The notes beneath the pieces were generated by a model. It worked only from the letters and a program-made list of their open reading frames with translations. It was not told where the DNA came from and did no database searches. DNA of 11,623 nucleotides, taken from contig CATLGN010000027.1 in assembly GCA_949935685.1 (NCBI GenBank), forward strand, positions 1 through 11,623, given 5' to 3'. Source of the DNA: an uncultured Lachnospiraceae bacterium. Its GTDB lineage: Bacteria; Bacillota; Clostridia; Lachnospirales; Lachnospiraceae. Positions 1,193 through 6,006 of this stretch are shown piece after piece (within the stretch, counting starts at the first letter, position 1; each line of letters opens with the position of its first letter). Position numbers and translations under genes: made by a program.

Positions 1193-2107
1193 CTATCCCA
1201 ATGTCTTTATTATGATTTCCAAAAGCTTTTCCCGCTCCACAGGTTTCAGCAAATATCCCTGCGGCTTCAGGACAAGCGCCTCCTGGATCTTTTCCCGATC
1301 GGAAACACCTGTCAGAAAGATAACGGGCAAATCTTTTGTCGCTTCGTTCGCGCGCAGCTTTTCCAATACGGCCGGTCCGTTTTCCACCGGCATCTCATAA
1401 TCCAGCAAAATCAGATCCGTCCGTTTCCGCTCCAGAAATTTCATGGCGATCTTGCCGCTGATAGCGGTCGCAATATCATATTCGTCATGCAGATGTTCCT
1501 TCAACAGCTTCAGCATCATCGGATCATCATCAATAACCAGAATATGCTTGCGGCGCGCCGACTCCGGTTCGGCAGCAGCCGGTTCGGCTTCGGCTTCGCG
1601 GGTCAGACGCTCCAACGCGGCAAGTCTGTCCAAAATATCTTCTTCTTTGGGAACCTGACGGACGGACGGCTTTTCGGAAAAATCAGGCACAGGGAACGGT
1701 TCTTCCGTATCTTCTGCCACGGGCTCCGGCACGCGTTGCGCCAGATACTTCATCAACCGCTCCGTAATGGAACCGGCAGACAACGGCTTCTGTAAACATA
1801 AGTCGGCCACATTCACCGAAATACGCTCAAATTCATCGCAATCCTCCTTTGTCCCGATCAGAACAAAAGGAATCCGGGATTCCCGCAGCCGGTATTTTAC
1901 TTCCGCCATCTGGCTGTAATTGTCCCGCGGCTCATTATAGAGACAATAAATAAAAACATGCGGGGAGAAATATCGGATATGACGTATAATATCGTCATAG
2001 CGTGTGGAAGTCGTCAGCACTTCAAAATTTTCATACATCTGATTAAAAAAATCATCGATGACAGAATTATTTTTCCCCGTCAGCAACGCTTTATATTTTA
2101 TTGCCAT
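1193..2107 (-). CDS. Stand-alone response regulator, pseudo-receiver plus receiver
   Basis: 304 residues with no DNA-binding or enzymatic output domain. The C-terminal receiver (about residues 186-304) is intact: acidic pocket D193-D195, phosphoacceptor D236 in LLDYEMP, T266 in IFLTG and K288 in LLKP. The N-terminal part (about 1-122) looks like a degenerate receiver fold: strand-like segments around KYKALLTG, HVFIYCLY, PFVLIG and a late QKP, but no aspartate in the normal phosphorylation position. A proline- and glutamate-rich, partly helical linker (about 124-185) joins them. The gene sits 22 nt after rpe, with an AAGGAAG ribosome site, and about 20 nt before the histidine kinase, its likely phosphodonor. 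Without an output domain it may act through protein contacts or as a phosphorelay intermediate; that is inference. Confidence 0.85.
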   Translation of the reverse strand: MAIKYKALLTGKNNSVIDDFFNQMYENFEVLTTSTRYDDIIRHIRYFSPHVFIYCLYNEPRDNYSQMAEVKYRLRESRIPFVLIGTKEDCDEFERISVNVADLCLQKPLSAGSITERLMKYLAQRVPEPVAEDTEEPFPVPDFSEKPSVRQVPKEEDILDRLAALERLTREAEAEPAAAEPESARRKHILVIDDDPMMLKLLKEHLHDEYDIATAISGKIAMKFLERKRTDLILLDYEMPVENGPAVLEKLRANEATKDLPVIFLTGVSDREKIQEALVLKPQGYLLKPVEREKLLEIIIKTLG

Positions 2108-2129
2108 ATCTTCCTTATCCTCTCCATCC

Positions 2130-2777
2130 CTATCCGAGCAGTTTGTCTATATTCTCGCCGATATTTCCCCGAAATACGGCGCTCCCTGCCACAATCACAT
2201 TGGCTCCCGCCTCTTTTACAATCGAAACATTGCCTGTGGTAATACCGCCGTCAACCTGCACATCCGTCTGCAGTCCGTATTCTTCCAGAAGCCTGCGCGT
2301 TTCCCGAATCTTTTCCGTGGAAGCTTCGATATATTTCTGGCCTCCAAATCCCGGTTCCACAGTCATAATCAATATCATATCGGTCTGTCTGATATACGGC
2401 TTCAGCGCAGCCACAGGGGTATCCGGCTTTATGGAAAGGCCGGCTTTACATCCCAGACCGTGAATCCGGTCAATCGTCTCCGCCGTCCGTTCTCCCGCCG
2501 CCTCCAGATGAAACGTAATCATATCCGCACCGCACTTCACAAACGTTTCAACATAGCGTATAGGCTCCACGATCATCAGATGCACGTCAAAAAACAAAGC
2601 TGTCTTCGGCCGGATTGAAGCGATCACCGGCATTCCAAAGGATATGGACGGGACAAACACCCCGTCCATAACGTCAATGTGAAGATACTCTGCACCCGAT
2701 TTTTCTATTTCCTGAATCTGCTGTCCCAATATGGAAAAATCAGCAGCCAGGATCGATGGTGAAATAATAGTCTTCAT
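2130..2777 (-). CDS. rpe: Ribulose-phosphate 3-epimerase
   Basis: 215 residues, the usual length of this TIM-barrel enzyme. It interconverts D-ribulose 5-phosphate and D-xylulose 5-phosphate in the cytoplasm, in the pentose phosphate pathway. Family motifs are all present: SPSILAADF at the N-terminus, the metal and catalytic pair in HIDVMDG (H33, D35), DVHLM (H66), the phosphate-binding and flexible loop MTVEPGFGGQ (about 138-147), and the second catalytic aspartate D176 in VDGGI. The start is the ATG preceded by GGGAG. It lies 16 nt after the transketolase C-terminal subunit gene, so the three enzyme genes form one operon. In this setting it links xylulose 5-phosphate made by AraD to ribulose 5-phosphate. 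Confidence 0.96.
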   Translation of the reverse strand: MKTIISPSILAADFSILGQQIQEIEKSGAEYLHIDVMDGVFVPSISFGMPVIASIRPKTALFFDVHLMIVEPIRYVETFVKCGADMITFHLEAAGERTAETIDRIHGLGCKAGLSIKPDTPVAALKPYIRQTDMILIMTVEPGFGGQKYIEASTEKIRETRRLLEEYGLQTDVQVDGGITTGNVSIVKEAGANVIVAGSAVFRGNIGENIDKLLG

Positions 2778-2793
2778 GCAATTACGCTCCCAT

Positions 2794-3735
2794 TTACTGA
2801 ACGAAAGCTTTCACTTTCTCATAGATTCCCTTGCCGTCCAGTCCGTATTTCTCCAGCAGGCCCGATGCCGTCCCGGATTCTCCAAATACATCGTTCATAC
2901 CAATGCGGCATACCTTCGTCGGCATTTTCTCGCTGAGTAAATCACAGACTGCGCTGCCAAGTCCGCCAATGATGGAATGTTCTTCCGCCGTTACCACCCT
3001 GCCGGTCTTCTTCGCGGACGCCAGTACCAGTTCCTCATCCAGCGGTTTGATTGTATGGATATTGATCACTTCTGCATCAATCCCGTCCGCCGCCAGCTTT
3101 TCTGCCGCTTCCAGCGCACCGGAAATGCAGGTTCCCGTTGCGATCAGCGTAACGTCTTTTCCCTCTTTCAGTACAACGCCCTTGCCAATCTCGAATTTGT
3201 AATCCGGCCTGTCGTTGATCACCGGCACTGCCGCGCGTCCAAAGCGCAGATAAACCGGGCCCTCATAATTGATCGCAGCATCCACCGCCGCTTTTGCTTC
3301 CACATCATCGGAAGGAACGATCACTGTCATACCCGGGATGGTGCGCATCAGGGCAATGTCCTCATTACACTGATGGGTCGCGCCGTCTTCTCCTACCGTA
3401 ATGCCCGCATGCGTCGCGCCGATCTTGACATTCAGATGCGGATAACCGATGGAGTTTCTCACCTGTTCAAAATTACGTCCCGCCGCAAACATAGCGAACG
3501 AACTGATAAACGGAATCTTACCGCATGTAGCCAGGCCCGCTGCAATACCTGTCATATTACACTCCGCTATTCCGCAGTCGATATGACGGTCAGGATACGC
3601 TTTCTGGAACACGCCGGTCTTGGTCGCTCCTGCCAGATCGGCATCCAGCACAACCAGATTGGGGTATTTTGCACCGCACTCGGCAAGCGCATTGCCGTAG
3701 CTTTCTCTTGTCGCAATTTTCTTAACGTCAGCCAT
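2794..3735 (-). CDS. Transketolase, C-terminal subunit
   Basis: 313 residues, the pyrimidine-binding and C-terminal half of a split transketolase. The catalytic glutamate that activates thiamine diphosphate is E58 in GIAECNM. The family signature HAGITVGEDGATHQ lies at about 109-122. The C-terminal domain (about 190-313) has the usual IATGT and AEEHSIIGGLG blocks. Pairing with the N-terminal subunit encoded just upstream would give the full enzyme, which transfers two-carbon units from xylulose 5-phosphate to ribose 5-phosphate or erythrose 4-phosphate. Its ATG overlaps the upstream stop by one base (TAATG) and is preceded by GGGAGGTG inside the upstream gene, so translation of the two subunits is probably coupled. 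Similar half-proteins exist for deoxyxylulose-5-phosphate synthase, but the two-gene layout and motifs fit transketolase. Confidence 0.95.
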   Translation of the reverse strand: MADVKKIATRESYGNALAECGAKYPNLVVLDADLAGATKTGVFQKAYPDRHIDCGIAECNMTGIAAGLATCGKIPFISSFAMFAAGRNFEQVRNSIGYPHLNVKIGATHAGITVGEDGATHQCNEDIALMRTIPGMTVIVPSDDVEAKAAVDAAINYEGPVYLRFGRAAVPVINDRPDYKFEIGKGVVLKEGKDVTLIATGTCISGALEAAEKLAADGIDAEVINIHTIKPLDEELVLASAKKTGRVVTAEEHSIIGGLGSAVCDLLSEKMPTKVCRIGMNDVFGESGTASGLLEKYGLDGKGIYEKVKAFVQ

Positions 3736-4574
3736 TAGTTTGCACCTCCCAGTTCTTCTCCGATTTTGTCAAGTTCCGCCATCGCTGTGGCATATTCTTC
3801 GTCGTTGGGCGCTTTGCCGTGCCAGCCCGCCTTGTCTTCCATAAAGGATACCCCTTTGCCCTTGACCGTCTTCATAATAATTGCCGTGGGCATACCCTTT
3901 GTCTCTCTCGCCTCTTTCATGGCAGCCGCGATTTCTTCCATATCATTGCCATTGATATTGATTGTATGGAAATTGAACGCTTCAAACTTTTTGTCAATCG
4001 GATACGGAGAACATACGTCTTCCACTTTACCGTCAATCTGCAGTCCGTTGTTGTCCACGATCACAACAAGATTGTCCAGTTTCCGGTGGCCCGCAAACAT
4101 CGCCGCTTCCCAGATCTGGCCTTCCTGAATCTCGCCGTCGCCGCACAGACAGTATACCCGATAGTCTTTGCCATCCATTTTGCCTGCCAGCGCCATGCCC
4201 GTCGCTGCAGAAAGTCCCTGTCCCAGAGAGCCGCTGGACATATCCAGGCCGGGCGTATCCTGCATGCACGGATGTCCCTGCAGATAAGAACCCAGTTTAC
4301 GCAGCGTCTTCAGATCCTCCACCGGGAAATACCCTCTGTATGCCAGAGCGGAATATAAGCCGGGCGCCGTATGTCCTTTGGACAATACAAACCTGTCGCG
4401 ATTTTCCATTTTGGGATTTTGGGGATCGATATTCATCTCTTCAAAGTAAAGATACGTAAACATATCCGCCGCGGAAAGAGAGCCGCCGGGATGTCCCGCT
4501 TTTGCACTATGTACTGCCGTTACGATACCTTTACGCACTTCATTAGCCTGCTTTGCTAATTCCAGTTTGTTCAT
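3735..4574 (-). CDS. Transketolase, N-terminal subunit
   Basis: 279 residues, the thiamine-diphosphate-binding half of a split transketolase. Visible motifs are AGHPGGSLS (H28), SKGHTAPGLY (H68), GSLGQG (115-120), the thiamine diphosphate and metal motif GDGEIQEG through DNNG (D146, then N175 and N176), and a late substrate-region histidine H252 in GWHGK. The frame is open to an ATG at 4589, but the MNKLELAK start at 4574 is chosen because a GGAGG lies 8 nt before it and the outer ATG is itself part of that ribosome site. The stop overlaps the C-terminal subunit start by one base. It is the first gene of the tkt-rpe-two-component group and follows the large intergenic region that holds the paired repeat elements. 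With rpe it takes arabinose-derived xylulose 5-phosphate into the pentose phosphate pathway. Confidence 0.95.
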   Translation of the reverse strand: MNKLELAKQANEVRKGIVTAVHSAKAGHPGGSLSAADMFTYLYFEEMNIDPQNPKMENRDRFVLSKGHTAPGLYSALAYRGYFPVEDLKTLRKLGSYLQGHPCMQDTPGLDMSSGSLGQGLSAATGMALAGKMDGKDYRVYCLCGDGEIQEGQIWEAAMFAGHRKLDNLVVIVDNNGLQIDGKVEDVCSPYPIDKKFEAFNFHTININGNDMEEIAAAMKEARETKGMPTAIIMKTVKGKGVSFMEDKAGWHGKAPNDEEYATAMAELDKIGEELGGAN

Positions 4575-4582
4575 AGCCTTGT

Positions 4583-4587
4583 CCTCC
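4583..4587 (-). promoter_or_regulatory. Ribosome binding site deciding the transketolase start
   Basis: GGAGG on the minus strand, 8 nt before the ATG at 4572-4574. The alternative ATG at 4587-4589 overlaps this site and has no comparable purine block at proper distance upstream, so the inner start is preferred. Confidence 0.75.
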
Positions 4588-4612
4588 ATTATATCAATAT
4601 TCTGCTTCTTTT

Positions 4613-4641
4613 ACTGTAGCATAATCCGGGGATTTCGTCCA
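4613..4641 (-). promoter_or_regulatory. Possible promoter of the transketolase operon
   Basis: On the minus strand: TGGACG (4636-4641) as a -35-like box, a 17-nt spacer, then TACAGT (4613-4618) as a -10-like box preceded by TGC, an extended -10 pattern. The predicted transcript would start near 4606, giving a leader of about 30 nt before the chosen transketolase start. Each hexamer matches consensus at only four of six positions, so this is a candidate. Confidence 0.35.
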
Positions 4642-4700
4642 TAGGAAGGGGAAAAATACAAGGCAACAACATCTACTTTTAAATTTCTGACAGAAGCAAC

Positions 4701-4878
4701 GCCGGAAAAACCGGCAGACAGCACCGGAATCCGGAATAACGCGCGCCTGAACTAACCGGCAACTACGGCTAAGGCGCTCCTGAGCCCCGTCGCGCCTAAG
4801 CCTGCGTAACCGGTGGATTTCATCCGCGCTAAGAACATTCCCCAAAGGCTTCCTGTGCTGGCTGCCGGCTTTTCCGGC
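4701..4878 (+). repeat. Structured palindromic element, copy 1
   Basis: Nested helices flank a conserved core. Outer helix: 4701-4724 with 4855-4878 (22 of 24 pairs). Next helix: GGAAT 4733-4737 with ATTCC 4837-4841. Then an asymmetric internal loop (3 nt on the left, 7 nt on the right). Inner helix: GCGCG 4741-4745 with CGCGC 4825-4829. Core: 4747-4824. The core has its own hairpin, 4767-4777 with 4792-4802 (10 of 11 pairs, 14-nt loop). Strand is given as the one on which the core reads CTGAACTAACC to GGATTTCATC; which strand, if any, is transcribed is unknown. The outer arms also contain small local hairpins (GCCGG and CCGGC around an A-rich or T-rich loop). Copy 2 shares the core and loop sizes but has different helix sequences. 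It could be a structured RNA family, or a REP/MITE-like palindrome. I do not recognise it. Confidence 0.8.
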
Positions 4879-4884
4879 TGGATC

Positions 4885-4914
4885 TTGACAAAATATCCGT
4901 AAGTTACATGTTAT
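4885..4914 (+). promoter_or_regulatory. Possible plus-strand promoter reading into element copy 2
   Basis: A perfect TTGACA (4885-4890) is followed after 18 nt by TGTTAT (4909-4914), four of six matches to TATAAT. It lies in the spacer between the two structured elements and would drive transcription on the plus strand through copy 2 towards the hairpin and T-run at 5214-5278. No plus-strand gene lies nearby, so if active it would make a noncoding RNA. Confidence 0.3.
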
Positions 4915-4981
4915 CCGTTCCCTTGTTGTGATCAGCGCTTTTTGTTACACTAACAGCAGAACGTATGCCAGCCAATGCCCA

Positions 4982-5164
4982 GCCAGAGGGATGGCAAAGG
5001 AAATCTCAGGCAGGCTTTTGGAGGGCGTATTTCGCTGAGATGAAATCCACCGGTTACGCAGGCTTGACGCGACGGCTCTCCGGAGCGTCTTAGCCGCAGT
5101 TAGCGGTTAGTTCAGATCAGCATTGCCCGTGCCTGCCCGAGATTTCCTTTGCCATCCTTCTGGC
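4982..5164 (-). repeat. Structured palindromic element, copy 2 (inverted)
   Basis: Inverted relative to copy 1. Outer helix: 4982-5015 with 5131-5164 (32 of 34 pairs). Next helix: GGGC 5023-5026 with GCCC 5125-5128. Internal loop: 7 nt (5027-5033) opposite 3 nt (5122-5124), the same 3/7 asymmetry as copy 1. Inner helix: 5034-5038 with 5117-5121 (5 bp). Core: 5039-5115, with one unpaired base next to it at the same place as in copy 1. Core identity to copy 1 is 69 of 78 aligned positions, including one gap. The core hairpin carries a compensatory change: a G-C pair in copy 1 is A-T here. The inner helix differs at three of five pairs with pairing kept. The near-perfect 34-bp outer stem resembles a MITE or palindromic unit; the covarying inner helices resemble a structured RNA. 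Confidence 0.8.
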
Positions 5165-5213
5165 GTTGCCTTGCCAACATACCCCGTTTTGTCATATTCT
5201 CATAGAAAATTAT

Positions 5214-5262
5214 GAAAGGCAGCCGTTTTCCATGCTTCTTCCGCATCCAACGACTGCCTTTC
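5214..5262. terminator. Bidirectional terminator-like hairpin after araD
   Basis: A 14-bp stem (5214-5227 with 5249-5262, one mismatch that is a G-U wobble on one strand) with a 21-nt loop. On the minus strand it lies about 45 nt after the araD stop and is followed by ATAATTTTCT. On the plus strand it is followed by TGATTTTACC and seven T residues. It probably ends the arabinose operon and could also end any plus-strand transcript from the intergenic region. Confidence 0.65.
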
Positions 5263-5307
5263 TGATTTTACCTTTTTTTCATAACAGTATAAAAGAATAT
5301 CGTGCCT

Positions 5308-6006
5308 TTATGTATCCTGCCCGTAATACGCATTGGCGCCATGTTTTCTGAAGTAATGCTTATCCTGCAGCACCTGCGGTGCAGGCGTATTTTTCGGATT
5401 GATCATCTCACAGCGCGCCGCCATCTTGGCAACTTCGTCCAGAACAACCGCATTGTGTACCGCTTCGTGCGCATCCTTGCCCCAGGTGAAGGGCCCATGA
5501 TTTTTGCAGAGTACGGCGGGCATTGCCACAACGTCGATGTCATTGTCCTTAAAGTAGTTTACAATCAGAACACCCGTGTTTACTTCATAACCTGCGTCGA
5601 TCTCCTCTTTTGTCAGATTTCTGACACAGGGGATCTCACCATACATATAGTCGGCATGTGTTGTCCCATAGCACGGAATGCCTCTCCCGGCCTGCGCCCA
5701 GCTCGTCGCCCAGGAGGAGTGTGTGTGTACCACGCCGCCTACTTCCGGGAAGCCCTTATAGATTTCCACATGGGTCGGTGTATCGGAAGAAGGTTTGTAT
5801 TTTCCTTCCACCTTTTTACCGTCGAGATCTACCACAACCATATCTTCCCATGTCAGTTTATCATAATCCACGCCGCTCGGTTTGATCACAAACAGGCCCT
5901 TTTCTCTGTCGATTCCGCTCACATTACCCCAGGTAAACGTCACCAGCCCGTATTTGGGAAGCAGCATATTGGCTTCATAGACCTCTTTTTTCAGTTCTTC
6001 TAACAT
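5308..6006 (-). CDS. araD: L-ribulose-5-phosphate 4-epimerase
   Basis: 232 residues, matching the usual length of about 231. This class II aldolase-like zinc enzyme converts L-ribulose 5-phosphate to D-xylulose 5-phosphate, the last step of the isomerase pathway for L-arabinose. Zinc-ligand histidines are visible as H94 and H96 in VVHTHS and H170 in [10 protein letters not shown]. Catalytic D119 (THADY) and Y228 near the C-terminus (NAYYGQ) match the aspartate and tyrosine of the E. coli enzyme with a one-residue offset. GNVSG and KPSGVDY near the N-terminus are the family's phosphate-binding blocks. It is the last gene of the arabinose group, 39 nt after the kinase, and is followed by a terminator-like hairpin. 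The related UlaF/SgbE enzymes have the same fold, but the araA neighbour decides for AraD. Confidence 0.95.

Follow-up and report, generated by a model that had tools for sequence, protein, structure and literature searches.

MITE-like bacterial repeats of the BOX, RUP and ERIC type are non-coding, non-autonomous intergenic palindromes whose helices are conserved in sequence, and the sites of an integron attC array are repeated in a single orientation. REP palindromes, both GTAG- and CGTC-tagged, measure 20-40 bp and no transposase is known for the CGTC type, according to the available text of PMC3733652. MRSC-65-2 has a long covarying stem and a conserved UYCCGG repeat, is found in diverse phyla with dozens of copies per genome, and is proposed to be selfish and possibly structured as DNA (as described in the available part of PMC11109978). 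Palindromic RNA candidates from human microbiomes are listed in PMC8040213. The comparison with published work drew on the available text of these three descriptions and of PMC8632094.

The DNA analysed here, hereafter the window, is a stretch of 11,623 nucleotides from an uncultured Lachnospiraceae bacterium (GCA_949935685.1, contig CATLGN010000027.1). It carries two copies of a hairpin-forming DNA repeat family located between genes of some gut bacteria. We read the family as non-autonomous mobile DNA repeats that fold as single-stranded DNA and are moved by a protein encoded elsewhere, with a probability of roughly 0.6.

Structure of the hairpins

Hairpin copy 1 lies at 4701..4878, with minus as the likelier folded strand (inverted repeats I4, I1 and I2, and fold), and copy 2 at 4982..5164, with plus as the likelier folded strand (inverted repeat I3, and fold). 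Both inverted copies of a preliminary description were recovered in place from I1-I4, and its shared core of 69/78 positions was found again as an alignment over 78 query positions at 88.46% (5039-5115 minus vs query 58-135). The flank helices differ as claimed there, in sequence and in the folds (GCGCG/CGCGC and GGAAT/ATTCC in copy 1, GCTGA/TCAGC and GGGC/GCCC in copy 2). The sizes of its exact 3/7 internal loop were not reproduced; the predicted loops differ between strands. The minus strand of copy 1 folds at -108.2 kcal/mol (z -7.1) and the plus strand of copy 2 at -119.7 kcal/mol (z -10.0), each equalled by 0/200 shuffles, and the opposite, less stable strands gave z of -6.2 and -8.7, respectively.

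A covariance model of 83 nt, R1, was built from 47 diverse cores. It places the conserved apical cores at 4744..4826 on the minus strand (87.1 bits, E 1.4e-21) and 5037..5118 on the plus strand (88.9 bits, E 4.0e-22), both window copies being among the 47 rows used to build it. The 103-nt spacer between the divergent hairpins (4879..4981, no strand assigned) is shorter than a 60-aa gene. A pattern scan of 4560-5320 detected 3 promoter-like matches (shuffle mean 1.0), all outside the spacer; its 2 terminator-like matches (shuffle mean 1.0) both sit on the folded strand of copy 1, at the 3' foot. Beyond araD, inverted repeat I8 (5207-5269) is by eye a possible minus-strand terminator, unlisted by the pattern scan.

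Across the 47 cores, 25 named pairs, taken on the strand opposite to the first-described core orientation, were 96.0% paired, with both-sided changes in 19/25 pairs (149 cells), and 0/500 shuffles reached any of five measures. The covariation first proposed from two copies is thus upheld on 47 diverse ones. Slid versions of the core structure were 27-43% paired, a comparison in which the core structure is favoured by having been drawn from one row. The alignment also contains conserved unpaired bases. On the strand first described, helix cells of 96 cores held 79 A.C vs 16 G.T; 41 of the 79 fall in one column pair (38 vs 16 without it), and the copies are related, not independent. Because A.C reads as a G.U or G.T wobble on the opposite strand, that strand is likelier the folded one, and given this asymmetry the core likely folds single-stranded. 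On the folded strand the core has tandem G.A and U.U mismatches.

Each copy is laid out as a long palindrome, in which a conserved, strand-specific apical core of ~83 nt tops an outer stem whose arms are hypervariable yet complementary and whose foot is conserved. The arms reach 40-147 nt past the core (123 copies). Among 3002 outer-stem positions between perfect pairs in these 123 copies, 2818 were Watson-Crick, the rest being 54 A.C, 42 G.T, 52 other mismatches and 36 gaps. For the outer stem no clear strand bias was seen, and its arms vary in concert between copies. At the orthologous sites L083/L093 and L107/L126 the stem is almost identical (a third pair, L052/L119, is clipped by a contig end), so that the flank-helix differences do not imply rapid drift in place. 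In 23 comparisons of Blautia schinkii paralogues without a shared stem, 237 complementary double changes were counted (128 of transversion and 109 of transition type), together with 143 single-arm changes (47 G.T, 36 A.C, 60 other), 1116 unchanged pairs and 79 mismatched positions that fit none of these classes. Complementarity of the outer stem is probably upheld by DNA template switching between the arms and not by selection on RNA.

The B. schinkii copies share a conserved leader of ~60 nt. Its alignment holds 42 rows, of which 31 were used for upstream information, and beyond about -60 no position in these 31 copies carries more than 0.18 bits. Since there is almost no information upstream of the leader, no built-in promoter is evident. 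No conserved T run was seen by eye after the foot in B. schinkii.

These observations bear on the alternative that survives best, a trans-acting structured RNA, in which each copy would be a small RNA gene, pairs would be transcribed divergently from the spacer and the family would spread by duplication. Covariation with conserved unpaired bases, the folded-strand asymmetry including G.U, the tandem G.A and U.U mismatches, the divergent arrangement of the pairs and the two terminator-like matches at the foot of copy 1 all speak for it. It is nevertheless unlikely, given that the sequence before the leader shows no conserved promoter in 31 B. schinkii copies, that no T run is conserved after the foot there and that the outer stem lacks a clear G.U bias; moreover, at least 140 dispersed copies and site polymorphism suit a mobile element better. 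The preliminary description had left the choice between folded RNA and folded single-stranded DNA undecided. A single-strand fold is borne out by the core asymmetry, and the balance leans towards mobile DNA on account of polymorphic copies, no conserved promoter, no sense-strand preference and an outer stem without clear asymmetry.

Distribution and arrangement of copies

Many other genomic copies, on which the preliminary description had made a conserved family depend, were found, including covariance-model matches in further Lachnospiraceae. The window's genome, which is incomplete (G000), has 5 copies, and blastn found copies in 3/61 relatives, counting that genome. A pattern scan of named genomes gave at least 117 stretches, taken as loci L029-L145, and 142 distinct copies were drawn from these and earlier loci. 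The carriers among the pattern matches listed were Lachnospiraceae, e.g. Blautia schinkii, Oliverpabstia, Dorea, Roseburia and Lachnotalea, and the other listed matches were in unplaced clostridial or 'uncultured bacterium' MAGs.

With R1, at least 23/299 genomes of the window's family (Lachnospiraceae) were positive, a patchy distribution, and across the class at least 3/391, all three in Lachnospiraceae; both surveys used strict filters and scored few candidates, so that weak members are missed. At least 140 R1 matches were found in B. schinkii (G331; of 1384 candidates, 150 were scored); some few of these matches are weak or clipped at contig ends. Elsewhere there were at least 35 matches in G134, 32 in G332, 44 in G334 and 18 in G333. 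Lower-scoring matches with a longer matched core of ~102-140 nt occurred in G330, G309, G247, G141 and others, the cores in these four named genomes measuring ~107-140 nt. In G134, where the GC skew is clear, 26/35 matches fall on the plus strand with both replichores taken together, an excess that possibly comes from scoring 150 of 583 candidates.

The family is absent from the Rfam library, in line with the initial failure to place the element in a known RNA family: Rfam covariance models gave 0 matches at gathering score across the window, 0 in 4600-5280 at E up to 1, and, for the elements at four further loci, none at E up to 0.1. Searches with copy 1 (blastn, plasmid and phage records) and with the exact 30-position core pattern (IMG/VR) also returned none. 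At L078:7280-7450, ~300 nt from an element copy, a Clostridiales-1 RNA was matched (RF01699, 116 bits).

Close copies are arranged in a characteristic way. In B. schinkii all 37/37 neighbours less than 1.5 kb apart are divergent with respect to their folded strands, in a single order; 74/140 matches sit in such pairs, and distances jump from 1257 to 4468. Neighbours closer than 1.5 kb were divergent in 3/3 cases in G134 and 3/5 in G334, and none were present in G332 and G333. With the five genomes pooled, 43/45 close neighbours are divergent and none convergent, the 2 same-strand cases both being in G334. Among fetched loci, 14/14 multi-copy units have the same divergent order, at 12 distinct places. 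Of the unpaired B. schinkii matches, 17/66 lie less than 1.5 kb from a contig start, so some may have lost their partner where the assembly breaks.

Gene orientation was recorded from crude longest-ORF calls, by which the window's own context was mis-set, and with at least one place (L025/L098) fetched twice. Among 50 single copies between same-strand genes, the folded strand was sense in 18 and antisense in 32, with the core at a median of ~97 nt past the stop of the upstream gene; a further 15 single copies lay between convergent and 9 between divergent genes. The ORFs of 127 loci were clustered, and none of the 15 largest clusters is a gene that recurs next to copies. The largest cluster (14 loci, by eye an ABC transporter family) has 4/16 members no more than 500 nt away from a copy, and the small clusters confined to the surroundings of copies consist of frames that run through the hairpin itself.

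An element acting in cis on mRNA (a terminator, a 3' or 5' UTR stabiliser or a processing signal) would fit the intergenic positions near genes and the short distance past the stop codon. Such a role is improbable, as the folded strand is sense in only those 18/50 by the crude calls, single copies also separate convergent and divergent genes, and no consistent gene accompanies them.

Presence, absence and possible cargo

The family appears to move. At the window locus, a block of ~4645..5307 is absent in 6/9 congeners (L147-L152), in which araD adjoins transketolase with a short gap and without the element; the other three (L153-L155) gave an araD match only. At L078:6756-6974, a 219-bp copy is present in C.4_9 and absent, with the same blunt junction, in the sibling MAGs AH.5_3 and C.3_16. 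At this one site no target site duplication was seen, the flanks abutting without overlap in the two siblings. The more distant C.6_10 also lacks the copy and has 36 nt of other sequence at the site. Given the identities between siblings (C.4_9/AH.5_3 96.4%, C.3_16/C.4_9 95.3%, C.3_16/AH.5_3 95.1%), one insertion explains the pattern more simply than two identical deletions would. An origin of the stem by inverted duplication of the target was ruled out at L078, as neither arm is in the empty site.

Ten further sites were compared besides L138 and L139, and only L078 gave an unambiguous blunt junction. The copy at L113 is cleanly absent in two siblings (1-nt ambiguity), with insert ends at other distances from the foot. 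AH.5_3 retains the hairpin foot with a 7-nt junction repeat at L073, and siblings retain hairpin pieces with an 11-nt junction repeat at L059. At L058 the foot is retained in AH.5_3 and the site is filled in one of two siblings, and at L138 the copy is missing in C.3_16 (junction diverged) and a core-less hairpin is retained in AH.5_3. Junctions were diverged or ambiguous at L103, L128, L100, L135 and L092; L125 is filled in the single sibling fetched and L139, judged by gap size, in both siblings. Several sites that look empty are deletion remnants, and loss is therefore common; hairpin remnants are as expected of deletion-prone palindromes. Remnants without a core were noted with direct-repeat junctions at L330 (7-nt) and at L332 and L333 (11-nt), and at L291 the core is simply missing.

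Among the 37 B. schinkii pairs, 9, long ones for the most part, were checked for ORFs inside the spacer. A small gene or gene pair is present in each of the four with the greatest distance between cores (823-1174 nt): the Pfam matches are DUF6442 together with HTH_3, an HTH regulator, in the L348 spacer and NUDIX in that of L349, and, below cut-off, SnoaL_2 in L351 and the pyrophosphatase-like InPase in L215. The other five contained no ORF or only unconvincing frames. Two gene-carrying units were compared with relatives out of 60 of the genus. From their translations we take the flanks to be holA and comEC in one unit and a DnaJ-type gene and prfB in the other. Among 15 fetched congeners, chosen like all compared relatives for closely spaced flanks, the holA-comEC gap was 96-287 in 13 and 788 and 1144 in the remaining 2, vs 1630-1738 in B. 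schinkii, and none had an R1 match. The gap between the DnaJ-type gene and prfB was 121-282 in 4/4 congeners vs 1330-1401 in B. schinkii, the value of 282 resting on a 19-nt piece (332 by the main match). Several relatives that were not chosen, e.g. G739, G757, G770 and G773, differ in the orientation of these flanks or have ~4-10 kb between them.

In genomes other than B. schinkii, six divergent neighbours at longer distances enclose ordinary-looking genes (L356, L357, L361) or doubtful frames (L358-L360), and no recombinase was seen by eye in their spacers. Between the copies at 164 and 1011 of L060, the spacer is full of repeated TGGGTAA-containing units. As the four longest pairs hold genes and both compared units are missing at syntenic sites in relatives, a divergent pair may, tentatively, delimit a mobile gene-cassette system at both ends, with the hairpins as recombination sites and the spacer as optional cargo.

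Proposed mode of movement and relation to known repeats

Structure, copy number, patchy distribution, presence/absence polymorphism and divergent pairing are direct observations. In the mobile single-stranded DNA reading, one strand, once single-stranded, would extrude as a hairpin, its unpaired core bases would be recognised by a protein encoded elsewhere, and a copy, or a divergent pair as one unit, would be moved without target duplication. The search for a mobilising enzyme gave none: no recurring neighbour stands out in the 15 largest ORF clusters (127 loci), and Y1_Tnp (PF01797), looked for in 9 carrier genomes, is present in 4/9 and absent from G332, G333, G334, G090 and the incomplete G000. 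The weights given to mobile DNA and to a trans-acting RNA reflect the absence of an enzyme, these Y1_Tnp gaps and the lack of a built-in promoter.

Large intergenic palindromes with covarying cores, at 140 or more matches in one genome, would make up a noticeable share of some gut Lachnospiraceae genomes. The family offers a test of whether a hairpin can be recognised as single-stranded DNA without a Y1 transposase, of how long palindromes keep their complementarity, and of whether genes travel from site to site inside inverted hairpin pairs.

Like MITE-like repeats, these hairpins are non-coding, non-autonomous, intergenic palindromes; unlike them, they have covarying and not sequence-conserved helices and no target duplication at the single clean site (L078). 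An integron attC array differs in that the hairpin pairs here are inverted.

Membership of the REP/REPIN family with movement by a RAYT (Y1) transposase is the least probable explanation, for despite dispersed intergenic hairpins with unpaired bases, many per genome and mostly in head-to-head inverted dimers (REP features as given in the available text of PMC3733652), and the blunt insertion at L078, the copies here are ~180 nt or more with a hypervariable outer stem, far above the 20-40 bp of that source, and the Y1 gene is missing from 5/9 carriers, with only partial matches in B. schinkii and its at least 140 copies. The folded-strand 3' foot is often GC-GTCC, with CGTC only across the stem end, and neither Firmicutes nor Clostridi- occurs in the main text of PMC3733652 as available. 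MRSC-65-2, compared by its available description only (PMC11109978), likewise has a long covarying stem and dozens of copies per genome. It occurs in diverse phyla, whereas the positives here fall in one family, with one class sampled; the equivalent of its conserved UYCCGG repeat, TYCCGG, is present here in only 4/47 cores, although CCGG does occur in B. schinkii leaders and tails. Judged by text, MRSC-65-2 is the published description nearest in spirit to this hairpin family.
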